Source: Microcaldota archaeon
GTDB taxonomy: Archaea > Micrarchaeota > Micrarchaeia > Anstonellales > SKW190
DNA length: 35,364 nucleotides
Direction of reading: 5' to 3'
Assembly: GCA_026414265.1 (NCBI GenBank)
Contig: JAOAJI010000012.1
Span: forward strand, 1 to 35,364
A model generated the notes under the pieces. The model searched no databases. It was not told the origin of the DNA and saw nothing but the letters and a program-made list of their open reading frames with translations. The translations under genes were made by a program, and so were the position numbers. Below are positions 230-35,364 of the stretch, in pieces; positions within the stretch are counted from its first letter, which is position 1; each line of letters begins with the position of its first letter.

Positions 230-1048
230 CTAAATAACTCTTGGCCTTTGATTCTTCATAACATTCAAAAATATGTACTGGAATAAAGCAATTATAATGA
301 AAAATACTAATAAAGTCAATTCATTCAACTTAATGATACCTCCTATTAAAGTAGATATAACTATTGCAAACGCAACTGAAATTGCAGGAAATATAATACC
401 CAATATCAAGAAACCTAAGACTATCGGAGTTAGTTTTTGACCATATTCTTTTACTTCTAATTCCATGTCCTTGGCTATTTCATCAACTATTGCTTGGCAT
501 GCAGCAGTAACTTCGCTTCCAAACAATAACGAGTTGACTAGTTGCATGAGCATTCTTCTCAGACTTGTAGACGGAGTTTGCTCAGCAACTTGTTTCATGG
601 CTGTATGTAATGGTGTTCCTATGCTAACTAAGTCAACTATCTTTTTCATCTCTTTGCTGAGTTCGCCATAGCCTTTGGTTAATCCACCTATAGCCACGAA
701 TAATGGTACGCCTGATTTGAGTGAAATAAGTAAATGTTTACCTGCAAATAATAATTCGTTATCTATTTCCTTTGCTCTTTTCTTAGCAATTACGTAAGGA
801 TAATTAATAAATAGATATAATCCAAAAAAGTAAAATACAACAAACAAAGGTAGCAGTATTATATCTATTTTTCTTAAAAAAGCCAAAAACACAATTAATG
901 TTAATGCTATAGCAAGAAATATTGCGGAAAATAGACTTCTTTGAATATGTTGCTCCAAAGAAATTTTCATGTCAGCCTGAATTAAGTACGGTTGTATGTG
1001 TTTAAAATTTTTAGCTAATATGTTAGCAATTGCCATTTTTTCACTCAT
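230..1048 (-). CDS. TadC-type (type II secretion F family) membrane platform protein
   Basis: This 272-residue protein has membrane helices at about residues 38-57 and 63-85, a cytoplasmic loop of about 110 residues, and a C-terminal pair of helices (about 208-236 and 242-262). The loop carries GspF-domain signatures: ELLFAGKHLLISLKSGVPL, then GELSKEM.KIV..VS.G.PL..A, then SLRRMLMQLVNSLLFGSEV. Members anchor the assembly ATPase to the membrane and support the pilus or secretion pseudopilus. It follows the Asn/Gln-rich gene and precedes another F-family gene, as in archaeal Tad-like clusters with paired TadB/TadC proteins. Two ATGs are possible: at 1048, or four codons later at 1036 with a weak GAGTGA ahead of it. 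I keep the longer form. Family confident; the exact system (adhesion pilus or secretion) is unknown. Confidence 0.85.
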   Translation of the reverse strand: MSEKMAIANILAKNFKHIQPYLIQADMKISLEQHIQRSLFSAIFLAIALTLIVFLAFLRKIDIILLPLFVVFYFFGLYLFINYPYVIAKKRAKEIDNELLFAGKHLLISLKSGVPLFVAIGGLTKGYGELSKEMKKIVDLVSIGTPLHTAMKQVAEQTPSTSLRRMLMQLVNSLLFGSEVTAACQAIVDEIAKDMELEVKEYGQKLTPIVLGFLILGIIFPAISVAFAIVISTLIGGIIKLNELTLLVFFIIIALFQYIFLNVMKNQRPRVI

Positions 1049-1105
1049 TATAAATATTAATTGCTATTTTTAAAATACCTTCTTTTCTAATGGCAACTCA
1101 CTTTT

Positions 1106-2404
1106 TCAATTACTTCCTTTTAGTTTCTTTAACTCTAATTCATACGCTAATTCTCTTACTCTTTGTCTAAATTCATCTGCATCTATTCTCCCTTCACCAA
1201 GGTCGGTATACAACTTAAAATCGTAGTTCATAGCAATAGCTAATAACTCTCCATCTGATAATGAATTAATTTTGTTTCGGATTTGTAGTTCATCCATTTT
1301 ACTATCTTTTTTTAAGTCCGTAGCCTCTGATTGAGTCCGATTACCGATTGTTTCTGGCCATTTATCTTTTATATTAATTTGTTCACTAACATTAGAACTA
1401 CCTTTTTCGATCATCTTTTCTGTTCGTGATACTTTTTGCAGTTCCGTTTCTGCAATTTGTACTTTTTTAATTGTTTCTTTAGACTTATCCTGTGCATTTG
1501 TATGTGTCTGTGACGCTGAAACATCATTTAACTTAATATTTGAGGAAAACAAAGAAAAAGAATTATCTCTTTTTACAGTTTTAGATGATTGAAGATTTTT
1601 ATTAATATTTTCACTTTGCGATTGTGTTTTGTGTGAAATATCTAACACTGAAAGAAGTTTATACGAAAAATTAGCTAAAATACTTTTTTTCCCTGAATCT
1701 GCTTGTTTGTTTACATTGATACTAGTATCTCCATCTTCATGTTTTGGTTGAACTTGACTGATAGATAGGTCATAACTCTTTGCCTGCTGGTATAAATTCT
1801 TAAACTCTCTTACTTCTTTTTCATTTTTTAATGATAATTCATCTAACATCAGTTCTTTTTCTTGCTCTTTTTCTATTACTCTATTTGGTTTTTGTTGTTG
1901 TTGACTTTCTTTCATTACTTGCTCTAACAATTCATTTACAACATCTGTGTTGTTATTATTGTCACTACTCTGATTTATTTCTCTTACTTGAGTTAGATTC
2001 TCACTCTCAGTAGCTATTTTCTGCTGCTGCAAAGGCTCAATATGAACAGATGGATTAGAAACAGAATAATTAGAGCTTTGTAGTTTTACATTTTCAATTT
2101 TTAAACCACCTATATCTTTGTCCTTTTTGAAAACTTGCTGGATTCCTGAAAAAGATTTGTGGTCTATTTTGCCACGTGTATGTAGAGGTATGTCTTCAAA
2201 CGCCTGCGCTGTTTTTACTACTGTCTGATAATCTATGTTTTCAACAATCATGAAAATCTTGCTTTTGTTACTTCTTTGTACGACCTTGTCCTTAACGTTT
2301 TTTTCTCTTTTTGAATTCAATAATACTTGCTCTGCTTCTCTTATCAAATTTTTCATATTAGATACTTCTTCAATATGAATATTTGATGCCATTTTATCAG
2401 CCAT
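1106..2404 (-). CDS. Asn/Gln/Ser/Lys-rich low-complexity protein in the Tad-like operon
   Basis: I do not recognise this 432-residue protein. A short N-terminal helix (residues about 10-35) is followed by 'KIFMIVENIDYQTVVKTAQAFEDI', which could be a small folded element. About 300 residues of polar low-complexity sequence come next, with QQQ, QQQQ and NNNN runs and no membrane segment. The C-terminus (about 380-428) is more conventional: SLSDGELLAIAMNYDFKLY then an amphipathic helix RIDADEFRQRVRELAYELEL. The gene sits 18 bp after the ATPase gene and 57 bp before the TadC-like gene on the same strand, so it is probably a co-transcribed cytoplasmic accessory of the pilus-like machine. A flexible adaptor or scaffold is inference. 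The ATG at 2404 follows GGGTTAG, a moderate Shine-Dalgarno. Confidence 0.7.
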   Translation of the reverse strand: MADKMASNIHIEEVSNMKNLIREAEQVLLNSKREKNVKDKVVQRSNKSKIFMIVENIDYQTVVKTAQAFEDIPLHTRGKIDHKSFSGIQQVFKKDKDIGGLKIENVKLQSSNYSVSNPSVHIEPLQQQKIATESENLTQVREINQSSDNNNNTDVVNELLEQVMKESQQQQKPNRVIEKEQEKELMLDELSLKNEKEVREFKNLYQQAKSYDLSISQVQPKHEDGDTSINVNKQADSGKKSILANFSYKLLSVLDISHKTQSQSENINKNLQSSKTVKRDNSFSLFSSNIKLNDVSASQTHTNAQDKSKETIKKVQIAETELQKVSRTEKMIEKGSSNVSEQINIKDKWPETIGNRTQSEATDLKKDSKMDELQIRNKINSLSDGELLAIAMNYDFKLYTDLGEGRIDADEFRQRVRELAYELELKKLKGSN

Positions 2405-2422
2405 AGTTATCTAACCCGAACA

Positions 2423-3913
2423 TCATTCAAAATTAAAATTTTCGTTATTTTTTGCCATTTTAACTATTTTTTCACTATCCATGTAATATTCTGATATTAT
2501 TTTCCCAACTTCGTTTACGCCTGTTATTCCTTTTTTAACCATCCATTCAAGTATTTGTTTTTTATCATTAACGTCTTCATAAAATTCTTTCTCAGTTAAA
2601 CCTGCGTACAAATTTAATCTCTCTAAAATTGTTTTAGGTTCGCTTATTTTTTCTAATTTATCCGATTTATAATTCCATCTATAAATTACGTGCTCTCTGC
2701 AATCTTCGCCTATTTCTGCCAATTCCAATGTCCTTCTTATACCTAGTCTCCTATGTCTGAACTGTACAACTATACCACCTATGGCAGACATGACGTTTTT
2801 TGGGATATCTATAGGAGGGTTAGTAAACCTTGAAACCATCTCTGCTGCATTGTCAGCATGAAAAGTACCATAAACACTGTGACCAGTATGCATTGCTTCA
2901 AAAAGAATCTCTGCCTCTCTCTTTCTTCTAATTTCACCCACTATTATTCTATCAGGCCTCATTCTCAAAGAATTAACTAATAAATCAAGCATTGTTATTT
3001 CTCCTTTTCCTTCAATGTTTGCTTCCCTAGTAACTAAAGGAACAACGTGTAGAAAACTCGGTAATGTTAGTTCTCTTGTGTCTTCAATAGTCACTATCCT
3101 CTGATTTGGAGGAATAAAAGCTGCAACTGCATTCAAAAAGCTTGTTTTCCCAGAACCTGTCCCTCCTGAAACTATTATACTCAATTCGTTTTGAACCATC
3201 AGCCAAATAATGGCAGCCACATCAGAAGAAATTGTTTTACTGTTTAATAGAACTGGCATTGTCCATGGATTTTTCGAAAATTTTCTTATTGTTATAGTAT
3301 TACCGTCATTTGAAATGGGGCTCAATGTAGCATTTACTCTGTCACCAGAAGGCAAATGTGCATCCATTAATGGATTCAATACACTTATTTGTTTTCCTAC
3401 CCTTCTACCTATCATAGCAGCGTAGTCGTAAATAGTTTGCTCGTCTTTAACATAAACGTTTGTTTTGCACCAGCCAAACTTTTTGTGATAGACCATAACT
3501 GGCTTTTCTGCGTTATTAATCACAACCTCTTCAAGATGCTCGTCCTGTAATAAAAACTCAATATCACCCATACCAAGTGTGTCATTCAATATGTAAACAA
3601 CCATGAATCTTAGGTCATCGTCCTTAACGTTAGGCAGTTTTTGCTTTATCAAATAAGCTGCTGCAATTGAAAATTTTTCTTCGAGTTTCTTGTAGCTCTT
3701 AGTATCAAGCAAATCAGTTATCGATAACTTCATTTTAGACAATAGTTCTGTCTTAATAGTTGATAATAATATTTTTGTACCTTCCCCTATGTCTGGAAAC
3801 TGGACTTCATAAATAGGAACGTATTCGTTTATACTTCTATAAATGCTTACTGTCAAAGCAACTCCTTTTTTTGTGATTTCGTAGGTAGTTAAATATTGAT
3901 TAGCTTCATTCAT
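2423..3913 (-). CDS. TadA/GspE/VirB11-family secretion or pilus assembly ATPase
   Basis: This 496-residue hexameric ATPase powers assembly of a type IV pilus-like or Tad-like structure at the cytoplasmic membrane. The N-terminal domain (about 1-215) carries the family motif 'PLMDAHLPSGDRVNA' (181-195). The C-terminal RecA-like domain has Walker A GGTGSGKT (250-257), the Asp box TIEDTRE (275-281), Walker B RIIVGE (322-327) and the His box HTGH...TFHAD (342-354), so all catalytic elements are present. Length is normal for archaeal TadA/GspE proteins. The ATG at 3913 is preceded by GGTG at 6 nt, and an ATAAATATATATG TATA-like tract lies about 25-35 nt upstream. It heads an operon running to the left edge with the Asn-rich protein and two TadC-like platform proteins. 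No pilin or prepilin peptidase is in view, so whether the product is a pilus or a secretion system is undecided. Confidence 0.93.
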   Translation of the reverse strand: MNEANQYLTTYEITKKGVALTVSIYRSINEYVPIYEVQFPDIGEGTKILLSTIKTELLSKMKLSITDLLDTKSYKKLEEKFSIAAAYLIKQKLPNVKDDDLRFMVVYILNDTLGMGDIEFLLQDEHLEEVVINNAEKPVMVYHKKFGWCKTNVYVKDEQTIYDYAAMIGRRVGKQISVLNPLMDAHLPSGDRVNATLSPISNDGNTITIRKFSKNPWTMPVLLNSKTISSDVAAIIWLMVQNELSIIVSGGTGSGKTSFLNAVAAFIPPNQRIVTIEDTRELTLPSFLHVVPLVTREANIEGKGEITMLDLLVNSLRMRPDRIIVGEIRRKREAEILFEAMHTGHSVYGTFHADNAAEMVSRFTNPPIDIPKNVMSAIGGIVVQFRHRRLGIRRTLELAEIGEDCREHVIYRWNYKSDKLEKISEPKTILERLNLYAGLTEKEFYEDVNDKKQILEWMVKKGITGVNEVGKIISEYYMDSEKIVKMAKNNENFNFE

Positions 3914-6090: not shown

Positions 6091-6209
6091 TGGGGCCACA
6101 GGGATTTGAACCCTGACATGCTGGTTTATTCTTCTAAATGACCTTTGTATTATAGATAGCCCATTTAGAACCTGGAGCCAGCCACGCTACCTGGTTACAT
6201 CATGGCCCC
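6091..6209 (-). tRNA. tRNA-Trp (CCA anticodon) with a 46-nt intron
   Basis: On the minus strand the acceptor stem GGGGCCA pairs with UGGCCCC, discriminator A is at 6091, and no CCA end is encoded. The D arm is AUGU/GCGU around AACCAGGUA. The anticodon stem is GCUGG/CCAGC, with loop CUCCAGA once the intron is removed, giving anticodon CCA for tryptophan (6173-6175). The T arm is CAGGG-UUCAAAU-CCCUG. The mature length is 73 nt. The intron sits at the canonical position 37/38. Every stem closes by Watson-Crick or GU pairing, so the assignment is firm. It lies between the membrane-anchored protein and the HD-domain gene. Confidence 0.95.
6126..6171 (-). other. tRNA-Trp intron at position 37/38
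   Basis: The 46-nt intron contains a perfect 9-bp stem, UUCUAAAUG paired with CAUUUAGAA. The stem brings the two splice sites together, as expected for a bulge-helix-bulge substrate of archaeal tRNA endonuclease. In many euryarchaea the tRNA-Trp intron is long and doubles as a box C/D guide RNA. This one is short and shows neither a RUGAUGA box C nor a CUGA box D, so it looks like a plain spliceable intron. The boundaries are set by restoring a 7-nt anticodon loop. Confidence 0.85.
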
Positions 6210-6323: not shown

Positions 6324-8444
6324 CTATGATAGAAATTTGTTATATAGAGATTTCTTTAGTTCGTTTAATGAGTTATAATCAACTTCATTATTTAAAGCTA
6401 CTATTAATGGATGATTTAAGCCTCTAGGATTCAAACTAGTTGATTTAATGTAAGTTACATTTTCACCTAGAGACTCTCTCAATACTTGCTCTAGAGATTG
6501 CAATACGTTCTCTTCATTGTTCATCTTTTCAATAATCCAGAATGGAATTTCTATCTCAGTATTTCCGTTTTTCCATATTACGATGTCATAAGCGTTCATC
6601 TTTTCTTGAAGGATTTTGTGGAAGTTCATTATCATACTGTTTCTGTCATTATCAATGATTACTACGTTCTCCTTCCAAAGCTCTAAATCCCTGAAAAACA
6701 AAAAATTTGAATTTATTTTATTTTCTCTTCCGTAATATTCAACCTCTATAAGGTTCTTTACAGTTTCCAAATACGTAATTTCAAGTATTTTAGCCAAATA
6801 ATCTTCATTCAGTTTCTTTCCTGCTGCTTTAAAGTAATGGAAATATTTGTTAAATAGATAGCTTGCTTTTTCTGAAAATTTATGCGCATTCTCTGAAAGC
6901 TCATCTATTGTTGGATCAACACTATCAATGGCATTAACAGCAGCTCTAACTTCGTCAGTTAATTGCTTTTTCTTTTCATCAGATAATACAGCTTTATCTA
7001 AGAATTCAGATAAATTAGAATAATAATCTGGGTTGGCGATCAAAGATTGCTTTAGGATAGAAATTATGTTTTTATTGAAAACATACAAGTCTAGAAATCT
7101 CTTTATACCTATGCCTTTGCCTTTGCTTTTATTGACTTTACCTTCGATTCTTTGTTCCATTAGAGATTGTGAATCGGGGTTGTTGTTATTTCTGTTGTTA
7201 TTATTATTTACAATTTTGTATAAACGCATCTTCTCATACAAATATATGTAAGCTAAATAGTAAACATATAGCGAATGCAAATTGTCTATATTATCGTCTA
7301 ATTTTCCCAGTATGGTTTCGTATCTAAGTTTTGCAATTTGTTGTATTTGAATATTTTTAAAGTATCCAGCTATAGATTGAGTATCTTTGAGGTTTATGGA
7401 ATCAAAAAATTTTTCAATACCTTTTGAATATTTATCAATTGCACTTGATATATCACCGAATAACTTTATTCTATACATCTCAAGCCCTGTTCGATCGATA
7501 TCTTTTTGTTTTGGATCATAGTAGTCGTTATCAAAAACATCAATAATTTTAGTCATCAAAAAGCGTTGAGAGCTATCCCTTCCACCTTTGGTGTAAGATT
7601 GTGAAGCTATTATCTCTCTTGGTTCTGAACGTAAATAAATAAGGAATAATACCAATAAAGCCATATCAAAAAAAAGGTGTTTACTTAAGTCTGTTTGATC
7701 ATTAACATCTTGAAAATGAGAAGAAGCCAAAGAAAAAGACATCAAAAAATCAAAAAAAGATACATTTGCTTTTATAACTTTTTTAGAGTCCACTTTCAAA
7801 GCTTTGTGGTAATCTTCCAACAAATCATGACACAGCTCAACTGAGATATGAATTGCCATATCACGGATATCGTTGAAACTCAAGTCATCTAATTTAACAC
7901 CGTTCTTATTTGGAATTAAACGTCTAACAGCCGCTTCAGCAACATCTAAACAATGAAATATATACTTTCTATGCCCGTTTAATTCGTATTTCCTGTTCAT
8001 TGGAGCATGAACTATCAAAGCATTCAAATAGGAGTTAATTATAAAGGTTATCAGTAAATTTTTTTCATACTGAGATAGTGAAGAAGTATTGTTTAGAAAA
8101 TTTGAAAAAGGCACTAATATATTAGAACAAAAAATATTATTGGCTTCTTCAAGAGATTTTCTACCTCCTTCATTGTAGTTGTTGGTTAACCATTCAAGTA
8201 ATTCATAGAAAGTTACGTTATTGTTTATAAGCAAAGATCTGCTATCAAAAAAAAATTTTAATGTCTTTTGAAAATTTTTCATGCTTCCAAGCATGTTAGG
8301 TTGAGGCGTTTGAACGTTATGTGATTCTGCTAAAGGAGTAAAGATAGTATGAATATTCATTTTATCTTTGATGGTTAGATTAGGAATGACTTTAGGATTT
8401 TGATTATCTTTTGATGCTCGAAAATCGGGAGAGTTCATAATCAT
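6324..8444 (-). CDS. Large HD-domain protein with (p)ppGpp-hydrolase (RSH/SAH)-type motifs
   Basis: The 706-residue protein carries an HD metal-phosphohydrolase motif set matching the hydrolase domain of SpoT/Rel/MESH1. YIFHCLDVA (161-169) fits Y-I-x-H-P-x-x-V-A, with H164. CHDLLED (205-211) fits HDxxED, with H206, D207, E210 and D211. KIIDVFDN (299-306) fits K-L-A-D-R-L-x-N, with D302 and N306 at the usual spacing. These residues bind Mn and position the 3'-pyrophosphate in (p)ppGpp hydrolases. No synthetase, TGS or ACT domain is seen. The remaining ~400 residues are an unrecognised, mostly helical region with a polyasparagine stretch (VNNNNNRNNNN, near 400-412). I place the start at the ATG at 8444, because GGTG lies 6 nt upstream; an in-frame TTG at 8465 is possible. 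GATATATATACC near 8489-8500 is a plausible promoter. HD call good; exact substrate is inference. Confidence 0.7.
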   Translation of the reverse strand: MIMNSPDFRASKDNQNPKVIPNLTIKDKMNIHTIFTPLAESHNVQTPQPNMLGSMKNFQKTLKFFFDSRSLLINNNVTFYELLEWLTNNYNEGGRKSLEEANNIFCSNILVPFSNFLNNTSSLSQYEKNLLITFIINSYLNALIVHAPMNRKYELNGHRKYIFHCLDVAEAAVRRLIPNKNGVKLDDLSFNDIRDMAIHISVELCHDLLEDYHKALKVDSKKVIKANVSFFDFLMSFSLASSHFQDVNDQTDLSKHLFFDMALLVLFLIYLRSEPREIIASQSYTKGGRDSSQRFLMTKIIDVFDNDYYDPKQKDIDRTGLEMYRIKLFGDISSAIDKYSKGIEKFFDSINLKDTQSIAGYFKNIQIQQIAKLRYETILGKLDDNIDNLHSLYVYYLAYIYLYEKMRLYKIVNNNNNRNNNNPDSQSLMEQRIEGKVNKSKGKGIGIKRFLDLYVFNKNIISILKQSLIANPDYYSNLSEFLDKAVLSDEKKKQLTDEVRAAVNAIDSVDPTIDELSENAHKFSEKASYLFNKYFHYFKAAGKKLNEDYLAKILEITYLETVKNLIEVEYYGRENKINSNFLFFRDLELWKENVVIIDNDRNSMIMNFHKILQEKMNAYDIVIWKNGNTEIEIPFWIIEKMNNEENVLQSLEQVLRESLGENVTYIKSTSLNPRGLNHPLIVALNNEVDYNSLNELKKSLYNKFLS

Positions 8445-8450
8445 AAGAAA

Positions 8451-8454
8451 CACC
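8451..8454 (-). promoter_or_regulatory. Shine-Dalgarno choosing the HD-protein start
   Basis: GGTG on the minus strand lies 6 nt before the ATG at 8444. It lies inside the longer frame that would begin at TTG 8465, so it favours the shorter form. Confidence 0.5.
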
Positions 8455-8488
8455 GTTGATTTCAAAAATAAAAAAATTTTTTCCGAAA

Positions 8489-8500
8489 GATATATATACC
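8489..8500 (-). promoter_or_regulatory. TATA box for the HD-domain gene
   Basis: The minus strand carries GGTATATATATC. Transcription would start about 25 nt downstream, near 8465-8470, giving a leader of about 20-25 nt that includes the GGTG ribosome site. The rest of 8466-8640 is A/T-rich; I see no further gene in it. Confidence 0.55.
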
Positions 8501-8640: not shown

Positions 8641-9894
8641 TCAAAAATTACCAAGATTGTATTCATGTCCGTTTTCAGGTGCAACTGCATCAAAGCCTAA
8701 AGATTTCAATTCTTCTGCAAATTCTTTGCACGCATCTCCATGCATACAAAAAATCTTTTTTGGATTGCATTCATTTACAAACTTGAGTAAATCAGACCTG
8801 CCACTGTGGGCAGAGAAATCATAATAATCAACAGGTATATCAACATCTACTTCGTGGGAATTAATTAATACCTTGTTAGTTTTCTGCAGCCTCCAACCGT
8901 TAGTACCTTCAACACAATATCCTGTAAATATGACTTCTGAGTTCTTAGGGGAATTTAATATATATTTCAAAGCAGGCCCACCTTCTAACATTCCTGCAGT
9001 GGCTATTACAATACCTCCTTTGCTCATTAGCTTTTTTCTTTCTTTTTCTTCCTGTATTGTTTTTACTGCCTTCATACCCCTCAAAAAAGAGTTATAATCG
9101 TTTATCAGTTTTCTGTTTTTCAAATAAATTTCGTTAATTGCATTACCCATACCGTCGACATAGATTGTTGATCCTACTTCAGAAAGTATCGATATTAACT
9201 CTTGAGTCCTGCCTACGGCAAATGACGGCAATATAAATAAACCGTCATTTTTTAACACATCTTTGGCTTTATCTATCAATTTCTTTTCAAGTTCTCGTCT
9301 ATTCTCATGTTCTTTGAATGCATATGTCGATTCCAATATTAACGCATCTGCTTTATATGTTTTGCAACCTTTGTGCATTCTTGTATCTGAGGCATTCATG
9401 TCACATGTGTACAAAATAGAAAATCCATCTGCTTCTTCTAATTTTATTATTCCACTTCCCAAGATATGGCCTGCATCAAAAAAACTAATTTTTTTATCAC
9501 TGAACCTAAAAGGCATCTCATATTCAATTTCAAAAACGTTCGACAGTATTTTTTTTACATTTTTCTTTTGATAAGGCAAATTTTCGCCCATGATTTTCGC
9601 ACTGTCATCCCATAAAACTTCAGAAATAGATAAAGTAGGAAAAGTTGTAAGTAAAAGAGGTTCCTTTTCTTCGTACAAATATGGTATGAATCCAGAGTGG
9701 TCAAGGTGCGCATGAGAGAGCAAAATTAAATCCATTTCATTAACCTTGATAGGGTAACTTGGCTGCGGATTCAGTTTGATTCCATAATCAAACATCATAT
9801 TTACTTTTCCGCTTTTGTATAGTACTGCATTCTTTCCTACTTCCATAGCGCCTCCACAAAAAAAGAGCTTCCTATCTCCAGTGTTATTTTCCAT
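8641..9894 (-). CDS. Metallo-beta-lactamase / beta-CASP ribonuclease (archaeal CPSF/RNase J group)
   Basis: This 417-residue RNA-processing nuclease belongs to the beta-CASP family. Visible motifs are GGAMEVGKNAVL near the N-terminus, zinc motif HAHLDHSG (61-68), DAGHILGSG (140-148) and the YTCD motif (162-165). The beta-CASP part has ESTY (motif A), SAHSGRSDL (motif B) and CMHGD (motif C). All metal ligands are present. There is no N-terminal KH domain, so it resembles the short archaeal aCPSF2 class rather than the KH-containing aCPSF1; an aRNase J assignment cannot be excluded. The start is set at the ATG at 9894 because AGAGGT lies 6 nt upstream; an extended TTG frame would add six residues over that site. 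It closes the eL42-to-PAC2 operon. Confidence 0.92.
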   Translation of the reverse strand: MENNTGDRKLFFCGGAMEVGKNAVLYKSGKVNMMFDYGIKLNPQPSYPIKVNEMDLILLSHAHLDHSGFIPYLYEEKEPLLLTTFPTLSISEVLWDDSAKIMGENLPYQKKNVKKILSNVFEIEYEMPFRFSDKKISFFDAGHILGSGIIKLEEADGFSILYTCDMNASDTRMHKGCKTYKADALILESTYAFKEHENRRELEKKLIDKAKDVLKNDGLFILPSFAVGRTQELISILSEVGSTIYVDGMGNAINEIYLKNRKLINDYNSFLRGMKAVKTIQEEKERKKLMSKGGIVIATAGMLEGGPALKYILNSPKNSEVIFTGYCVEGTNGWRLQKTNKVLINSHEVDVDIPVDYYDFSAHSGRSDLLKFVNECNPKKIFCMHGDACKEFAEELKSLGFDAVAPENGHEYNLGNF

Positions 9895-9900
9895 GAGTAT

Positions 9901-9906
9901 ACCTCT
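9901..9906 (-). promoter_or_regulatory. Shine-Dalgarno fixing the beta-CASP start
   Basis: AGAGGT on the minus strand lies 6 nt before the ATG at 9894. It overlaps the codons of the longer candidate start (TTG at 9912), which argues for the shorter protein. Confidence 0.75.
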
Positions 9907-9944
9907 AAACAACTAAAGAATATGCAGTGAATATGCTCTGACAT

Positions 9945-12831: not shown

Positions 12832-15800
12832 ATGAAGTGGAATAAACGATTTGAAAATGAATTTTCAAACGAATTGGATAATGAAGATAGATTAGAAGAG
12901 CTAGATCAAGAAAACAAAACAGAACTACCACAACAAATAATAGATAAGCAAAAAGGCCTAAGAATTGAAAGATTGTTCACTAAAAAAAATCAAGACGTAT
13001 ACTCAACTATAGAATACGAATTAAGAGATTCTGTAATACGTAACCCAGATGGTTCTATAGTGTTCGAAATGAAAAATATTGAAGTCCCTAAGACTTGGTC
13101 TCAAATGGCAGTGGATGTTCTCGCACAAAAATATTTTAGAAAGAAAGGAGTACCACAACAAGATAAAGACGGAAAGCCTTTAATAGACGCAAATGGAAAC
13201 ACAGTAACTGGAAGCGAAACCAGCATCAAACAAGTAGTAAAAAGATTATCTAAATGCTGGAGACATTGGGGAGAAAAAATGGGTTACTTTGATTCTTTGG
13301 AAGATGCTGACGCATTCGAAGATGAAATCGCCTATATGTTATTACATCAATATGCTGCTCCTAATAGCCCACAATGGTTTAATACTGGATTACATTTATT
13401 GTATGGCATAAACGGACCTTCTCAAGGGCACTACTATGTTGACCATGTTACTGGAGAGGTAAAAAAATCTACAGATGCATATTCACGACCACAAGTACAT
13501 GCATGTTTCATTCTTTCCTTGAAAGATGATTTAGTAAATGAAGGAGGTATATTTGACTTAGTTACAAGAGAGGCGAGAATCTTCAAGTACGGTTCTGGTG
13601 CAGGTACTAATTTTAGCAGTTTGAGAGGAATAGGTGAACAATTGTCCGGCGGAGGATATTCCTCTGGTTTAATGTCATTTTTAAAAATATTTGACAGAGC
13701 AGCAGGCGCTATCAAATCAGGAGGGACTACGCGCAGGGCAGCAAAAATGGTCTGTGTAGACATAGACCATCCAGAAATAGAAAGTTTTATTGAATGGAAA
13801 GTTATTGAGGAACAGAAAGTCGCAAACTTAGTTGCTGGCTCCCAAGCTCTTAAAAAAATTAATGACGACCTCTTTCAACTAATAGCAATCCACAAAAAAA
13901 GCATAAAGGATAAAGAAGTTAAGAAAGTAATCAAAGAAGGAATAAAGAACGGAATACCTATAAATTACATTAAAAAAATCATTCAATCTGCCACTCAAGG
14001 GATAAAAAACGAGATAAAGGTTTTTGACACTCATTACGAAGGAGATGCATATGTTACAGTATCTGGACAAAATTCTAATAATAGCATAAGATTGTCTCAT
14101 AAATTCATGAACGCTGTTGAATTAAATGGTAATTGGGACCTTTTAAGAAGAACTGATGGAAAAATCGCAAAAACTTTGAAAGCAAGAGAACTATGGAATA
14201 AGATTACTTATGCTGCATGGGCATGTGCTGACCCTGGTCTGCAATTTGATGACACCATTAACGAATGGCATACGTGTCCAGTAGACGGAAAGATCAATGC
14301 TAGCAATCCTTGTAGCGAATACATGTTCCTAGATGACACTGCATGTAACTTAGCAAGTCTAAACCTGCTTAAGTTCTACGACAACCAATCAAAAACTTTT
14401 GACATAGAAAAATTCAAACACGCTTGCAGGCTCTGGACTATAGTGCTTGAAATTTCCGTAGGCATGGCACAGTATCCTTCGTATGAAATAGCGAAAAGAA
14501 GTTATGAATATAGAACACTCGGCTTGGGATATGCAAATTTAGGTGCACTGTTAATGAGTATGGGAATTCCTTACGACAGTGAAGAAGGAAGAGCGATTGC
14601 TGCAGGATTAACGGCAATTATGACTGGGAAAGCGTATGCAACGTCTGCAGAAATAGCTAAATTTCTCGGTCCATTTAAGCAATACGAAAAAAACAAAGAA
14701 CACATGTTAAGAGTCATAAGGAATCATAGAAGAGCTGCATATAATGCAAAAGAATCTGAATATGAAGGGTTAACAATTAAACCTAAAGGCATTGACCCAT
14801 CATTTTGCCCGACTTACATACTAAAAGAGGCAAGAAAGTGTTGGGATGAAGCGTTGTATAATGGAGAGAGGTATGGATATAGAAACGCTCAAGTAAGTGT
14901 TATTGCACCAACAGGGACCATAGGTCTTGTAATGGATTGTGATACAACAGGAATCGAGCCTGACTTTGCTTTAGTAAAGTATAAAAAGTTATCAGGAGGC
15001 GGTTATTTCAAGATAGTAAATAAATCTGTACCTTTGGCTCTGAAGAACTTGGGCTATTCAGAAGAGCAAATAAAAGATATTGTAAATTATTGTATAGGTC
15101 ATCAAACTCTGGTTAATTGCCCTAATATAAACCCACAAACACTAGAAAGCAAAGGATTTACTTCTGAAGAAATTTCTTCTATCGAAAAATCAATTAAAAA
15201 TGCTTTTGATATCAACTACTTGTTTTCGCCAAACGTTATCGGAGAAAATTACTTCAAACGTGCCAGAATACCAGAAACCATATACAAAGATTATAATTTT
15301 AATCTACTAACGTATGTCGGCTTTACTGATTCACAAATAGAAGAAGCAAACGAATACATATTCGGCACAATGACTGTTGAAAATGCACCACATCTAAAAA
15401 AGGAGCATTACGCAGTCTTTGACTGTGCGAACAAATGCGGAAAGAAAGGTACAAGATACATCCATTACCTAGGGCACATAAAGATGATGGCAGCAGTACA
15501 ACCTTTTATTAGCGGAGCCATTTCAAAAACGATTAATTTACCCTCAACTGCAACTGTTGAAGACATTGATAAAGCCTATAAAGAAGCTTATAAATTAATG
15601 CTAAAAGCCATTGCTTTATACAGGGATGGCAGTAAATTATCACAACCGCTTTCAGCAGCTGAAGATGAACTTTCTTATGAATTATATCAACTTAGCCTAA
15701 GTGATGAAGATATTGATGAAACTATAACTGTAGAAAAAATTCAAGAAGAATTAATTAAAAAATTCGAAACAATAAACAAACCTGCTGAGCAACATAAGCC

Positions 15801-16584
15801 AATACTAGTAAGAAGGAAACTACCTCACAAAAGAAAGGGTATCATTCAAGAAGCCATTGTAGGGGGACAAAAAATATACCTCAGAACAGGTGAATACGAA
15901 GACGGTACACTTGGAGAAATATTCATAGACATGTACAAAGAAGGTGCAGCTTTTAGGTCATTGCTTAATTGCTTTGCAGTCGCTATATCGAAATCTCTAC
16001 AGTATGGTGTTCCACTTGAAGAATTTGTCGATTCTTTTACTTTTACAAGATTTGAACCTGCTGGCAAGGTGGAAGGCCATAACGCAATAAAAAGAGCAAC
16101 ATCAATATTAGATTTTGTTTTTAGATTCTTGGCTTACGAATATTTAAACAGAAAAGACCTAGCCAATATACCTTTTGTTGAGAACACAACTCCAGGAGCA
16201 ACAAATTACGAGCTCAAAAAAGTTGCAGATTACCAGACGAATGGAAATAGTTCTTATCATAATAACAATATCAAAAACCCTGAAATCGATAAAAATGTCT
16301 CAACAGTTGATAACAGCATAACGGAGATTGAAACCAAAAAAACAGTTGCTCTTTCGTTAAATAGCTCTGATTTGGATAAAAAAATAGATATAAAAGAATT
16401 TGAAGGATCAGATAAAGAAATACATCTAAATGATGAAATCAAAACAGATATTTCAAAAACACTGGAATTTAAGAGCAAGGGTTATACTGGAGACATGTGT
16501 AGTTCTTGTGGATCAATGAGAGTAAGAAGGTCAGGTACTTGTGCGGTATGTGAAGATTGCGGAACCACAAACGGTTGTTCCTAG
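12832..16584 (+). CDS. nrdJ: Adenosylcobalamin-dependent (class II) ribonucleoside-diphosphate reductase
   Basis: This 1250-residue enzyme reduces ribonucleotides to deoxyribonucleotides using a cobalamin-derived thiyl radical. Catalytic residues are in NPCSEY (N492, C494 as radical cysteine, E496). The redox pair is C225 (QVHACFIL) and C505 ([11 protein letters not shown]). [13 protein letters not shown] (296-308) is a class II hallmark. A TSCPD domain lies at about 1000-1105, including [19 protein letters not shown]. The C-terminus has a four-cysteine zinc finger (CSSCG...CAVCEDCG) ending GCS, typical of NrdJ_Z enzymes. A Lys-rich insert at about 340-395 and a disordered linker at about 1110-1215 add to the length. 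No intein and no N-terminal ATP-cone is seen. It is transcribed with nrdR. Use of B12 makes the cell independent of oxygen for dNTP synthesis but dependent on cobalamin supply. Confidence 0.96.
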
Positions 16585-26334: not shown

Positions 26335-28629
26335 CTAAAAAAGCCTAAATGCTTCAAACAATCGGCTGAAAAAATTAGAAATCCATAAGGTTAACTTTTT
26401 TCGTTTTTCGTATCCTTTCTTAAGTTTATTAGAAATTAATTTTATTATGTGTAAGTATAGGTATTGTATATTTTGCAATCTTTTTATGTAATGTAAATTT
26501 GCAGCACTCTTATTATGGATAAGTGAAACTACAAACTTATCATCTTTGTCTGTTATAACTGTATTTAGTTTCATGGCACCTGACTCTATAGGAGTTAATT
26601 TTGTATTACTATCCCTTGTGTTGAATATAAAAATTTTTTTATTAGTTGTATGCTGAATGAATCTATTAATATCAATCACTTTTGGATTGTGCATTATCCG
26701 ATAACTCATATTATCGTATATAGTACGTATACCCATAACAAGCTCTACTTTTTGTAAATGGTTGTTATACAAGATCAAATCCATGAATTCAGGTAGCACG
26801 TATATCATCATTTGTTGAGAATCATAAACTTCGTAATTTAAACAACTAATATTTAGATGATTATAATAAATCAGACTAGTATTCAACAAAAGATGATGTT
26901 TTTCATTAGTTGGTTGAGCAAATCTTAAGTAAGTTTTTGAACAATTCGCTTCTATCGTGCATTTACAATGCTCAAACAACCTCTCAGCTCTTGCCATAAA
27001 ATTAAGTTGTAAACTTTCAAAGTTATTTGGAAGCAAAGGCAAAGGCTGTGCATGTTGATTGGTTAACATTTTGATTGAAGAATTATTGAGTATAAGTTTA
27101 TGTATCTGAGGACTTATTATAATGGAGTGGGCGATAGTAGATAAGTGCTGTTTAAAGTCAGGTGTGCTTATTGTACTTGTAATATTATTTTTAGTATTTT
27201 TAACCTTCTCAAGAGGTATGGAATCTGTAAGTTTAGAACTTCTTTCAAGAAGAGCATAACGTGTTTTGTTTGTGACCGCTTGATAATTGATCAAAAAAAG
27301 ATTATCTGCATTTCTTATAACTGAACTTGAATCATTAACTCTGTCATAGTTTGCTTGTTTAGTATCGTTCTTGATATTTTTTTGATATATGAGTACGTTA
27401 TTCGTTGATTGATTGTGATCGAAAGCATTCATCTTTATACTATTTTGTATTTCCTGTTGCCCAGAAAATAGCATATGCATATCCATTTGATTTTCAAAAC
27501 CGTATTCCAATTCCATTAGTTTTAAATTCCTTTGAATTATTGAAGATAACTGCAGTCTACTAAATAGACTATAATCTATGTTTATGTTTGAGTTTGATGA
27601 TGTAGAACTGTTTTGCTTGTATTCATTATTATTATTATTAGAAATTTGATAACCCAAATAATGATTACTGATTCTGTAGTTTCTATTTATTAAAAGTAAA
27701 TAATTATGCAGGTTTTGAAGAAAGAGCTCATTTGATTGGAACGAATTTAATAAAAGAAATAAATTGTAGTCTGAAAATGGCTTAAACTTCAAAAATTGAT
27801 TATGCCTATGATATTGTCTATTTAAGTATAATTCTAACAATAGAGCATCTGTGAGTTGAGTAAAATTAATTGATTGATGAAGATGATAAATTTTATTTCC
27901 TATTTTAAGTTTTTGCTTGAGATAGAGCATGTGCAAAAGCTCTTCCTGCTTACACTCTGACTCGCATGGAGATTGTGCCCAATATTCATGTGATAATTTC
28001 CCAAAGAGATTAATAAGTAACTTTACAAAAGAATAAAAAATTTTAGATTTTTTACCTACCAGGAATGATGAGAAATTTTTGCCCAACAAATCTTTTGAAT
28101 AAACCGCTTTTCTATTAGAGCCTTTAATTTTTTCTAATTCTTCATAATACTTGGCTGTTATGTCCCATTGTTCGCTTACTCCTTTAATTGATCCAAATTT
28201 ATCAGTAACCCATATTGTTGAAGTAGTTTGATTAAGAATTTGATCTATTTTTGAGATATTGAAGTTGTTGATAAATGATAGATCAATTATGTTTAATATG
28301 ATATTACTATCAACTGATAAAAAAGAAAGCTTAAGAAAATGATTGTCATTTTTTAATACTGTATCCATGCACATAGCAGATGTTGACAAAAAAAATTCTA
28401 AGTCATTTCTGAGCTTATTTAAGTGACTTGGATTAAATGTAAATGTATTATATGTTATTTGATTGATAGTACTTATAATTTCATTTGACTTAATATTTGG
28501 ATCAAAAATTAATGTAAATGTATTGAATTCAAGCCTACTCTTTTTTAGACTTAAATCTCGGTAATATGAGACCTTGGCTTTTTGTTTAATTAAGGATTTG
28601 AAAAAACTAAGATTACTACCCAAACCCAA
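26335..28629 (-). CDS. Large orphan protein rich in Asn, Leu, Ser and His
   Basis: I do not recognise this 764-residue protein. The frame is open throughout and too long to be chance. The N-terminal ~200 residues look folded (FNTFTLIFDP, LKLSFLSVDSNIILNIIDLS, TSTIWVTDKFGSIKGVSEQW). The middle is leucine/asparagine-rich with repeated tyrosines (YLLLINRNYRISNHYLGY) and a low-complexity block SNNNNNEYKQNSSTSSNSN (about 350-368). Cysteines cluster in CESECK and HCKCTIEANC. The C-terminus is basic and ends in an amphipathic helix (WISNFFSRLFEAFRLF) that could touch a membrane. There is no signal peptide. The start is TTG at 28629 or 28623, after a G-rich GGGGGTTGGG; the first in-frame ATG is about 80 codons in. 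A GATAAATATACG TATA-like box lies at about 28654-28665. It is divergent from lysS. Composition resembles the other Asn-tract orphans here. Confidence 0.65.
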   Translation of the reverse strand: MGLGSNLSFFKSLIKQKAKVSYYRDLSLKKSRLEFNTFTLIFDPNIKSNEIISTINQITYNTFTFNPSHLNKLRNDLEFFLSTSAMCMDTVLKNDNHFLKLSFLSVDSNIILNIIDLSFINNFNISKIDQILNQTTSTIWVTDKFGSIKGVSEQWDITAKYYEELEKIKGSNRKAVYSKDLLGKNFSSFLVGKKSKIFYSFVKLLINLFGKLSHEYWAQSPCESECKQEELLHMLYLKQKLKIGNKIYHLHQSINFTQLTDALLLELYLNRQYHRHNQFLKFKPFSDYNLFLLLNSFQSNELFLQNLHNYLLLINRNYRISNHYLGYQISNNNNNEYKQNSSTSSNSNINIDYSLFSRLQLSSIIQRNLKLMELEYGFENQMDMHMLFSGQQEIQNSIKMNAFDHNQSTNNVLIYQKNIKNDTKQANYDRVNDSSSVIRNADNLFLINYQAVTNKTRYALLERSSKLTDSIPLEKVKNTKNNITSTISTPDFKQHLSTIAHSIIISPQIHKLILNNSSIKMLTNQHAQPLPLLPNNFESLQLNFMARAERLFEHCKCTIEANCSKTYLRFAQPTNEKHHLLLNTSLIYYNHLNISCLNYEVYDSQQMMIYVLPEFMDLILYNNHLQKVELVMGIRTIYDNMSYRIMHNPKVIDINRFIQHTTNKKIFIFNTRDSNTKLTPIESGAMKLNTVITDKDDKFVVSLIHNKSAANLHYIKRLQNIQYLYLHIIKLISNKLKKGYEKRKKLTLWISNFFSRLFEAFRLF

Positions 28630-31709: not shown

Positions 31710-34700
31710 ATGCAATTAGGCATATTAACACAAAACAGAAAAGAAGTGGTGTTTATTAACTTGCTCAGTTTGTCAAAATTTTTGTTGGTCTTGCTTTTAA
31801 TCATAGGACCAAAAAATTACTTTCTCGCACAAAATCTTTACGATGTTAAAATAAAAGAAACTCTAAATTATGAAAACAAACATGAACTCTATGCTAACGT
31901 ATTTGTACCTAGAGACATAATTACTCCAAATCAAACTACTTTAAACAACCCAGAATATGCTAAAATAGTTTTTGAAATAAACGAATTAAACAAAAGTGCT
32001 GAAGAACTAATTCATGAGATATCTATCCTCAACCTCTTGGATACTTTTTTCTTGACTGCTACATACCAAGATGTCAAAAAGATAAATCAAACTCTTGGAA
32101 TAAACATAGAAAATTTCTTGGAAAAGTATCTTTTAACCATCGACTTAGCTTTAGTACCTGGTAATAAAATAAGTATCTACATACTTAAAGAGCACTATCT
32201 TAGACCAACCATTGATAAAAGAACTTTAAACTTCAGTGAAGTGCTATTACAGCAATACCAAAATACTTACAAATTGGTTTCAGAAGAAATAAAAAAATTT
32301 AAGGAAACACAAAAAGAATTTAGTCATGCAATAGGAAAAGAATATTACGATGAACACTTTGACGGTAAAGAAAAAGAAATTAAAAAATTCGATACCTTTT
32401 TTCAAGAGTTCAAAACAAATTATTTGATTGGAAAAAATCCTTTACTTGATAGAACTTGTGCATTTAACTACTATGAGAGGTTCAAAATTAACTTTAAAGA
32501 ACATAGAACCTCAAATTACGAGGTTTTTGTCAACCTTAAAGACATCTTAGAGATAGATTATCCTGGAATATTTTATCAAAGAAAATTATTAGACTCAGTT
32601 CTAAAAAATAAGAAAAAAGAATTGAATGATACAAAAAATGAATTTCAACGTGAAAAAGAAAAACTGATTTCGAACTTGAAATTTGCATATAACCAAAATT
32701 TAAATGTAATAGATGTACAGACAATTGACGCTATATTGATTGGTCAAGATCTGTTAGACACTGGTTCATCAATACAAAAGGAATTGACGCTAATTCAAAA
32801 ATTTTATAATACAGATTTAGAGATTAATGAATTAGATGAAAACAGAGAAAAATGGCTGGTTTATAATTTAGACCTGTACAAAAACAAAATATATCAAATA
32901 AAACAAATGAACATCAAGCTGAATATACTTATAGACAAAGCCAAAAAAATTAATCTTGAGTTAGAACTAGAGATTGATTCTTTGCTAAACAGAAAAATCA
33001 GAGAAAATCAGAACGATATGACATCATTGGTGTTCTTAAATAGTATAAAAAATGACCTGGAAAAAACAAAAGACTTAGATAACATAGGTCAAAAATATCT
33101 TTTTCTTAAAAGCCTCTATAATAAGATGAAAAATTTCGAATCATGGAAGAAAAACAAAGAATTTGATATTTTGTTTGAAAAAGAACTGCAAGAGATTTCA
33201 AGTACTTTGAATTGGATAAAAGATGATTATTACGATGATTATGTGAGTATAAACGCTAACATGAAACAAATTAAAGAAGGAATAGATTACGTTAAGGCAA
33301 ACCTAGATAAAAACAATTCTGTACTTTTGAAAATCATTAGTAACAGAATCTCTGAAATAAAATTAAGACTCTATGAAATAATGAATGAAAACAAACAAAA
33401 AGTTATTTCAATGCTTCTGAAGAAAAAATCTTACTACGAAACAGGTCTTTTTAAACAAAAAGATTCTGATTTAAGCTTAGAATACGAAGAAGTAGTCAAT
33501 GCAGTTTCATTCCATGACCTTAAATTACTGTTGGATAAAAGAAAAAAATTAGAAAAAGAGCTAGCAGAACTAAAAGCACAGTTAAATGATAACTTAGAAA
33601 AATACATTATAAACAATCTAATAGTAAAAGATGAACATGAATTAATAGAAGAAACCTTGATTTCTACATATACATTGAATTTCCATTTGCCTTTTGACAT
33701 AAAATTAGAGGAAAATGAACAAATTGACATCAACATAGACACTAGTTATATTCTCCCAAAAGATACTTTAGGAAATTACGACTTTGAAATAAGCGATGTT
33801 AAAAGCGCAAAAGAAGGAACAGCTTTTGATACAAAACTGATTAACAGAAAACTTCAGATCATTTTTACAGAAAGTGTTAATTTTGGAAATTATGAGATAA
33901 TTTTAATTGCTAAAAACAATCATCAAATCAACTTTAATTCCAGCTATGAAATACTAACTCAAAATGAAAATTTTGCATTGATAAACTATAAGCAACACTT
34001 TAAACTTGATAAGAAATTAAGTAGATTAGTGAATTACTTTGAACTTCAAAATGAAGGTTCTTTAATAAGCTGCAGAATAAATGATGATTTCTGCAAAGCA
34101 GAAATTATAGACGTCAATCAAAAAAAATATGTGCGATTGGAATATAACGATAATCTAAACCAAGGTAATAACAAAATTCAGCTTCTGTATGTAATAAATC
34201 AGCCATATAAGGTAGATATATTAAATTACAGTAATTATACTCTAGGTTCCGTAAATTACATAGAATATTCAATTAAGTTCTACGATACGAAAATTGAAGA
34301 AGTATTTTATGAAAACGACAATGTAGCAGAAAAAATAGAATACGTTGAAATAAAAGAACTAACACCTGTGAGTGATTTACAGAAATCTCAAAAGAAAAAC
34401 GGATTCAGCTTGAAATTTAAACCTGTTCTTAATCAAACTATCTTAAAGGTTAAAATAGCTTTTTCTGGTAAAGTGGCTGTAAACGAAAACGAAACAAGAA
34501 AATACATACACAACTATACTAATCTAAATGACTCCAATATTTCAGAAGAAAAAAAGAGCTTACGTAGTAATATTGAAGAATTTTATGAAACTGTTGAACT
34601 TTTTGAAGAATTTCTGCCTAAGAGATTTATAGAAAAAGTTGAAAAGTTGAAAAATAAAATTATTGTCAGTAACGATACCATAAACAAAAAAGACGTTGAA

Positions 34701-35364
34701 AACTACGAAATCCTAAAACTAGAATTTGTTGATAATCTAAAGAAATACGTCAAAAATTCAAGAATATACGATGAAGAAGTAAAAGAAAAACTTGACAGGT
34801 TAAGAAAAGAAGGCTTAGAGCAAAAGAACATAATCGAAATAAAAGAACTTATGGATACAGCGATAAAAAACAACAACAAAGAATTAGAAAATTTAGCTGG
34901 TCAAATAACTGAAAGAAAAGAAAAATTAAATGTGTTGATCAAAAATTTGAAAGAAACTTACGAAACATATTCTAATGGTTACAATCACAGAGATTATCTT
35001 TATTTGTTCAGTATAAAACAAAGGGACTTCAATTCATTAATAAAAAAAGCAGAATCATTACTGACTAAAAACTGCTCAACTGAAGTTTGCCTGAATGAGA
35101 TCAACCAGACTATTAAAGAAACTGAACTTATGCTAAGCACCATGAACAAAACACTAACTAACATCAAATTAAGTACCATGAACAACATAGACTACGTTAA
35201 CCATTTGTTAAAAAATTCTAATTTTAACGAAAGTATAAAAAATTCATTCAACGAAAAAATTACTGAAATAAACAAGAGGCTTCTGAACAATGAAATTGTT
35301 GATTCGTTTATCGCTTCAGAAAAGCTCGTAAATGAAGTGAATAAACTTTCCAAGAGCTTAATGT
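31710..35364 (+). CDS. Giant secreted coiled-coil protein, incomplete at the window's right edge
   Basis: An uninterrupted frame runs from the ATG at 31710 through the last base (1218 complete codons, no stop). A positively charged N-terminus and the hydrophobic stretch FLLVLLLIIGPKNYFLAQ (about 24-41) form a signal peptide or anchor. Residues about 45-660 are mostly charged helices with heptad-like Leu/Ile/Lys/Glu patterns. A beta-rich section (about 660-930; TYTLNFHLPFDIKLEEN, NYEIILIAKNNHQINF) follows, then further coiled coil to the end. Many N-x-S/T sequons are present, as on archaeal surface proteins. It has few cysteines and no enzyme motif. TTATTAAAA at about 31676-31684 would give leaderless transcription. 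A surface stalk, adhesin or cell-cell contact filament is plausible but inferred. The true C-terminus, and any membrane anchor there, lie outside. Confidence 0.85.
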   Translation, partial: MQLGILTQNRKEVVFINLLSLSKFLLVLLLIIGPKNYFLAQNLYDVKIKETLNYENKHELYANVFVPRDIITPNQTTLNNPEYAKIVFEINELNKSAEELIHEISILNLLDTFFLTATYQDVKKINQTLGINIENFLEKYLLTIDLALVPGNKISIYILKEHYLRPTIDKRTLNFSEVLLQQYQNTYKLVSEEIKKFKETQKEFSHAIGKEYYDEHFDGKEKEIKKFDTFFQEFKTNYLIGKNPLLDRTCAFNYYERFKINFKEHRTSNYEVFVNLKDILEIDYPGIFYQRKLLDSVLKNKKKELNDTKNEFQREKEKLISNLKFAYNQNLNVIDVQTIDAILIGQDLLDTGSSIQKELTLIQKFYNTDLEINELDENREKWLVYNLDLYKNKIYQIKQMNIKLNILIDKAKKINLELELEIDSLLNRKIRENQNDMTSLVFLNSIKNDLEKTKDLDNIGQKYLFLKSLYNKMKNFESWKKNKEFDILFEKELQEISSTLNWIKDDYYDDYVSINANMKQIKEGIDYVKANLDKNNSVLLKIISNRISEIKLRLYEIMNENKQKVISMLLKKKSYYETGLFKQKDSDLSLEYEEVVNAVSFHDLKLLLDKRKKLEKELAELKAQLNDNLEKYIINNLIVKDEHELIEETLISTYTLNFHLPFDIKLEENEQIDINIDTSYILPKDTLGNYDFEISDVKSAKEGTAFDTKLINRKLQIIFTESVNFGNYEIILIAKNNHQINFNSSYEILTQNENFALINYKQHFKLDKKLSRLVNYFELQNEGSLISCRINDDFCKAEIIDVNQKKYVRLEYNDNLNQGNNKIQLLYVINQPYKVDILNYSNYTLGSVNYIEYSIKFYDTKIEEVFYENDNVAEKIEYVEIKELTPVSDLQKSQKKNGFSLKFKPVLNQTILKVKIAFSGKVAVNENETRKYIHNYTNLNDSNISEEKKSLRSNIEEFYETVELFEEFLPKRFIEKVEKLKNKIIVSNDTINKKDVENYEILKLEFVDNLKKYVKNSRIYDEEVKEKLDRLRKEGLEQKNIIEIKELMDTAIKNNNKELENLAGQITERKEKLNVLIKNLKETYETYSNGYNHRDYLYLFSIKQRDFNSLIKKAESLLTKNCSTEVCLNEINQTIKETELMLSTMNKTLTNIKLSTMNNIDYVNHLLKNSNFNESIKNSFNEKITEINKRLLNNEIVDSFIASEKLVNEVNKLSKSLM

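Follow-up and report, generated by a model that had tools for sequence, protein, structure and literature searches.

The 35,364-nucleotide stretch of DNA analysed here (the window, positions 1 to 35,364 of contig JAOAJI010000012.1) comes from a Microcaldota archaeon of the phylum Micrarchaeota and encodes, on its minus strand at 6324..8465, a protein of 713 amino acids. As judged by profile comparison, this protein, which has diverged far, belongs to a two-domain family found across the phylum, in which a hydrolase domain of the HD type known from RelA/SpoT homologues (RSH) is followed by a family-specific C-terminal domain, without a synthetase domain. The reading favoured here, with moderate confidence, is that the window protein belongs to this family and acts as a Mn2+-dependent hydrolase of (p)ppGpp-like nucleotides. 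Its most likely activity, in which metal, reaction and substrate are all predicted, would be that of a 3'-pyrophosphohydrolase. An original prediction, made from the letters of the DNA alone, had described the protein as an orphan (p)ppGpp hydrolase; its residue numbers are raised by 7 in the present text, where residues are counted from the TTG start. The features of the gene are as follows.

6324..8465, minus strand: whole open reading frame, 713 amino acids from the TTG at 8465, with the stop at 6324
8444 and 8438, minus strand: alternative ATG starts of the same frame, the first giving 706 amino acids, the version used in the original prediction
7269..8045, minus strand: HD domain of the RSH type, approximately residues 141-399; compared with the family it contains long insertions (profile match, hhalign)
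7992..7994, minus strand: R158, then K159, aligned to the family's near-invariant Arg, by alignment Arg45 of SpoT_Ab
7953..7964, minus strand: Y168-I-F-H171, putative first metal-ligand His with a Tyr three residues ahead
7812..7829, minus strand: H213-D214-L-L-E217-D218, putative metal ligands (HD) and putative catalytic pair (ED)
7281..7304, minus strand: K388-L-D-D391-N-I-D-N395, favoured motif 5 (K-x2-D-x3-N), then LHSL (HMMER, masking)
7527..7550, minus strand: K306-I-I-D309-V-F-D-N313, motif 5 of the original prediction, alternative candidate (one hhalign alignment)
7179..7208, minus strand: Asn-rich low-complexity linker N420-N429 (sequence)
6327..6689, minus strand: C-terminal domain of the family, approximately residues 593-713 (shared: R608, EIEIP641, S677-L-N-P680)

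The open reading frame at 6324-8465 is real. It stays open over 713 codons in AT-rich DNA, its native codon usage (mean log score 0.151) lies in the range of the neighbouring genes (0.10-0.23; other frames 0.01-0.09), and a TATA-like tatatata, read by eye at about 8491-8498, precedes the TTG by roughly 30 nt. The genome is a 1.18-Mb draft, 90.7% complete; archaeal markers found in it are the genes for eIF2-alpha, L44e, PAC2, CDC48 and class I LysRS.

The family was delineated in a sample of 301 genomes of the phylum. PF13328 (HD_4) has matches in 60 of these genomes, many of them in long frames of 370-650 codons, and it is matched by all 23 members of the first family alignment (A1), while TIGR00691 (spoT_relA) is matched by 22 of the 23. 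More divergent members were gathered by iterated profile searches; the resulting larger alignment matches 78 of the 301 genomes at E<=1, and both domains occur in about 44, the matched spans being judged by reading. Members are ~360-680 amino acids long and share a layout in which an RSH-type HD domain with HDxxED and KxxDxxxN precedes a second conserved block, with a consensus of about VVxxPPRxxL...LPxP...IxVYG...EIGLP...SLLP...E.IFRV.GF. When compared with the PDB, the HD half of the family finds Rel as its best match (8fr8, E=2e-34), followed by other Rel/SpoT chains and MESH1 (2e-18 to 1e-19); its nearest relatives are thus not the dNTPase or YfbR families, which the original prediction had named as possible better matches. 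No match for the second domain was found in Pfam or among PDB sequences, and a limited literature search found no description of a layout with an HD and such a C-terminal domain. As for the earlier statement that alarmone enzymes are rare in archaea, the counts show that RSH-type HD domains are not rare in this phylum; RelA/SpoT annotation of DPANN archaea has moreover been published (PMC8407392).

Profile scores, domain order and residue conservation place the window protein in this family. For the scores, the window protein was kept out of every profile and the heuristic filters of HMMER were switched off. With a profile of 42 relatives the protein reaches 23.9 bits (E=3e-6 over 3001 sequences), whereas none of 3000 shuffles exceeds 10.3, and a second family alignment gives 22.5 bits against 8.5 for the best of 5000 shuffles; among decoys, consisting of 1730 real reading frames and their reversals, non-family sequences reach at most 11.6 bits. 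The match extends collinearly over both domains (residues 141-399 and 593-685), which within one sequence score 17.4-17.7 bits for the HD domain and 5.4-6.9 bits for the C-terminal one, with filters off only; the HD part taken alone scores 23.7 bits, with a best shuffle of 11.1. An hhalign comparison with the larger family alignment gives a probability of 81-86% (P about 1e-5), the value being 86% for residues 100-430. An independent profile, made from viral-contig hydrolases of the single-domain RSH type, likewise puts the protein first of 3000 (11.3 vs 9.2 bits), and the family profile exceeds it on the same protein, with 23.5 vs 11.3 bits. Special closeness to the relatives of group f4 was considered and rejected, since a profile built from f4 only fails to recognise the window protein, ranking it just 40 of 3000.

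These results bear on the possibility that the protein belongs to a different HD family (dNTPase, YfbR-like or Cas-type nuclease), or is no HD protein at all, with its motifs arisen by chance. What speaks for it is the behaviour of the single sequence, which has zero matches in Pfam, NCBIfam, PHROGs, PADLOC and PDB sequences. Single-sequence searches gave none above chance in phages, plasmids, viral contigs and 84,980 species genomes, and only chance-level matches in the order and in the 301 genomes of the phylum; one of the latter kind, which fell inside a T2SSE ATPase, was discarded. PF13328 gives no match to the protein at E<=10, and none in the window genome even at E=10, while control genomes did match. 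However, the shuffle and decoy tests, the collinearity of the two domains and the RSH enzymes found as the family's nearest structures make this explanation very improbable. The designation as an orphan therefore holds for single-sequence searches only; by its profile matches the protein is a member of a two-domain family that spans the phylum, and not a true orphan.

The active-site residues provide a further line of evidence. YIFHCLDVA, CHDLLED and KIIDVFDN, on which the original prediction was founded, are indeed present in that order and with the D-x3-N spacing (H171; H213-D214 and E217-D218; K306, D309 and N313), and CHDLLED, residues 212-218, supplies the HDxxED motif. According to the profile alignment, the metal ligands H...HD...D follow each other as H171, H213-D214 and D391 or D309. 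The segment ahead of the first His, reported as missing, is instead altered: R158-K159, N163-G164 and Y168 align with the family's R-[KD]-D-G-x-P-Y, with an insertion of about 3-4 residues, so that the Arg and Tyr ahead of the His are present and Y168 corresponds in position to Tyr51 of SpoT_Ab. Hydrolysis by SpoT_Ab involves R45, Y51, E82, D83, K140 and Mn2+, and activity is abolished by changes at Y51, E82, D83 or N147 (PMC9974481). Among the 42 relatives, whose mean column identity is 14%, H127, H155, D156, E159, K237 and D240 (family alignment numbering) are invariant, and R118, G121 and N244 are present in at least 90%; within HDxxED, the HD and the E occur in 42/42 and the adjacent D in 35/42. 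The window protein holds all nine conserved residues, G164 included, counting either candidate for motif 5.

Of the two candidates, the one with K388 is the more probable motif 5, as far as can be judged from the alignments. Masking its residues loses 4-6 bits in the main profiles, and masking KIIDVFDN 1-2; HMMER aligns the TK of KIIDVFDN with the family's LTKP, and the LHSL after N395 resembles the family's NLxTL. The case for K388 is weakened by one hhalign alignment that prefers K306, which would also suit as motif 5 by its spacing and by the PKQK after it. Of the full residue set of a (p)ppGpp hydrolase claimed earlier, Y168, H171, HD and ED are confirmed, and R158 is present as well; D309 and N313 may not be the catalytic pair, K388, D391 and N395 being preferred by most profile alignments.

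In the proposed mechanism, one Mn2+ would be bound by H171, H213, D214 and the Asp of motif 5 (D391, or D309), a water molecule would be activated by E217-D218, and the nucleotide would be held by R158, Y168 and the Lys and Asn of motif 5; the 3'-pyrophosphate of a (p)ppGpp-like nucleotide would then be released. The C-terminal domain, placed where long RSHs carry their synthetase and regulatory domains, may tune the hydrolase.

This C-terminal domain had been included in about 400 residues of helical sequence; the end of the protein, from about residue 593 to 713, is instead predicted as an alpha/beta domain common to the family. A single-sequence AlphaFold model of the last 141 residues gives, at low confidence (pLDDT 55.4, pTM 0.58), the order b-a-b-b-a-b-b-a, and Foldseek returned no credible match for this model (best E=0.01, TM 0.38). 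A hidden synthetase in residues 396-600 was considered but rejected (rank 976 of 3000 shuffles), as was kinship of the C-terminal domain with the synthetase family (hhalign 0.1%); the domain is not carried by viral HD proteins either, nearly all of which are of 119-282 amino acids and HD only.

Several points weigh against the reading of the window protein as a family member with hydrolase activity. With default filters, HMMER reports it with neither family profile, and since nothing is reported under these filters, the family search of the genome did not list it; the evidence for membership is made up of scores obtained with the filters off and compared with shuffles and decoys. Taken alone, the C-terminal part matches weakly, ranking first against 5000 shuffles by a small margin (12.1 bits vs 10.3). 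HDxxED is separated from motif 5 by large insertions, motif 5 itself is ambiguous, with two candidates, and the single-sequence AlphaFold model of the full protein is poor (pLDDT 37.7), so that the geometry of the metal site is unreadable from it. Finally, (p)ppGpp was undetected in the two archaea tested (PMC8646023), and neither PF04607, the RelA_SpoT synthetase domain, nor the phylum-specific synthetase profile has a match in the window genome, where an equally divergent synthetase would be missed.

The divergence past default profile detection, the insertions and the two candidates for motif 5 would also fit an HD-fold protein that is catalytically dead or has a regulatory role, binding a nucleotide or a protein partner without hydrolysis; among RSHs, HD domains that are degenerate and inactive do occur, for example in RelA (PMC3153485, PMC9974481). 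Yet R158, Y168, H171, the HD and ED pairs and a K-x2-D-x3-N have been kept despite drift elsewhere, which suggests selection for catalysis and makes a dead enzyme improbable.

The natural substrate is a more serious matter. The window protein could have the same fold and active-site chemistry and cleave another 2'- or 3'-phosphorylated nucleotide, such as NADPH, pppApp or one not yet described, in a lineage without synthetase. The missing synthetase matches in the window genome agree with this alternative, and so does group f4, where the two-domain protein occurs in 15 of 20 genomes and PF04607 in a single genome, which is without the HD protein. Within the order, the HD protein and the synthetase are not associated (odds ratio 0.41, p=0.08, kinship ignored). 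In addition, Xanthomonas has a small alarmone hydrolase without synthetase whose substrates are (pp)pGpp, pppApp and NADPH (PMC9765508), and therefore the residues do not reveal the substrate. Conversely, the window protein retains the residues by which SpoT_Ab binds the alarmone, and across the phylum the RSH-type HD protein and the synthetase co-occur, with 30 genomes holding both (odds ratio 3.9, p=1e-5, again uncorrected for kinship). Divergent RelA_SpoT-domain proteins, separate from the HD proteins and about 350-750 amino acids long, are found in 67 of the 301 genomes, in group f7 alongside the HD family, and Lys, Asp, Tyr, His and Glu positions do not vary in their profile. Synthetases may also be too divergent for detection: their absence from the window genome is unproven, because the HD-family profile also misses the window protein in the genome search. 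On balance, another natural substrate is a possible explanation, of lower probability than a (p)ppGpp-like one.

Compared with known systems, a hydrolase of (p)ppGpp-like nucleotides with this layout would resemble the small alarmone hydrolases (SAH: MESH1, Mesh1-L, paSpo, pbcSpo and others) in having an RSH-type HD domain without synthetase. Those enzymes, however, are small and consist of the HD domain only, as do the RSH hydrolases without synthetase carried by a few euryarchaea as small single-domain proteins (PMC3153485), whereas the family proteins (and the window protein with its 713 residues) share a C-terminal domain. The monofunctional SpoT of Acinetobacter baumannii and the long RSHs are similar in placing a large C-terminal part after the hydrolase domain, but in the family no pseudo-synthetase, TGS or RRM/ACT domain was detected and the C-terminal domain is not related to theirs in sequence; PF04607, typical of long RSHs, is found neither in the window protein nor in its genome. 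The profile evidence supports the earlier claim of an RSH-type hydrolase active site without synthetase in an archaeon, including the absence of the RelA_SpoT domain from the protein. RSH genes have been reported from several DPANN phyla and predicted to be bacterial in origin (PMC8407392); that survey uses standard annotation, below whose detection the window protein sits, and the passages of it that were covered do not describe the domain layout found here. In family f18 of the same class, three genomes carry long RSHs with HD_4 and RelA_SpoT in frames of 648-942 codons, whereas in other parts of the phylum the proteins are split.

The family bears on whether archaea use signalling of the (p)ppGpp type, RSH genes having been thought very rare in them. 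About a quarter of the phylum genomes hold RSH-type HD proteins, many with a full active site and an undescribed second domain, and about a fifth hold synthetase-domain proteins; together they represent concrete enzymes to assay. The two-domain family suggests that this familiar class of enzymes has an archaeal branch still to be mapped. The window protein, with its extreme drift and its kept catalytic residues, exemplifies proteins that standard annotation misses. A broader and rather doubtful proposal is that the phylum has its own split alarmone system, made of separate divergent synthetases and of hydrolases whose C-terminal domain would sense an archaeal signal; lineages like that of the window might keep only the hydrolase, for an alarmone derived from a partner or for another nucleotide.

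A beta-CASP nuclease gene lies upstream at 8641-9912 on the same strand, and synteny around it in 20 relatives revealed no shared neighbours. In f7, a HemK2/MTQ2-type methyltransferase gene follows the HD gene at its 3' side, on the same strand, in ten genomes, and genes for the proteasome beta subunit and for aCPSF1-like and TrmH/SpoU-like (rRNA methylase-like) proteins are found nearby; since the window does not share this neighbourhood, it says little on the window protein. Other features of the window are listed below.

6091-6209, minus strand: tRNA gene downstream of the reading frame (Rfam 45.5 bits, missed by ARAGORN)
12832-16584, plus strand: class II ribonucleotide reductase, 1250 amino acids (NCBIfam PRK07562 end to end, 1825 bits, above cut-off)
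26335-28629, minus strand: long open reading frame, 764 amino acids, no Pfam match
31710-35364, plus strand: long open reading frame, at least 1218 amino acids, running off the window, coiled-coil-like by eye
230-3913, minus strand: T2SSE ATPase and T2SSF membrane protein, flanking a 432-amino-acid reading frame of no family

By eye, the tRNA is a tRNA-Trp (CCA) whose anticodon is followed by an intron of roughly 45 nt. The ribonucleotide reductase is possibly of bacterial origin, and the genes at 230-3913 probably form an archaeal type IV pilus-like cluster.
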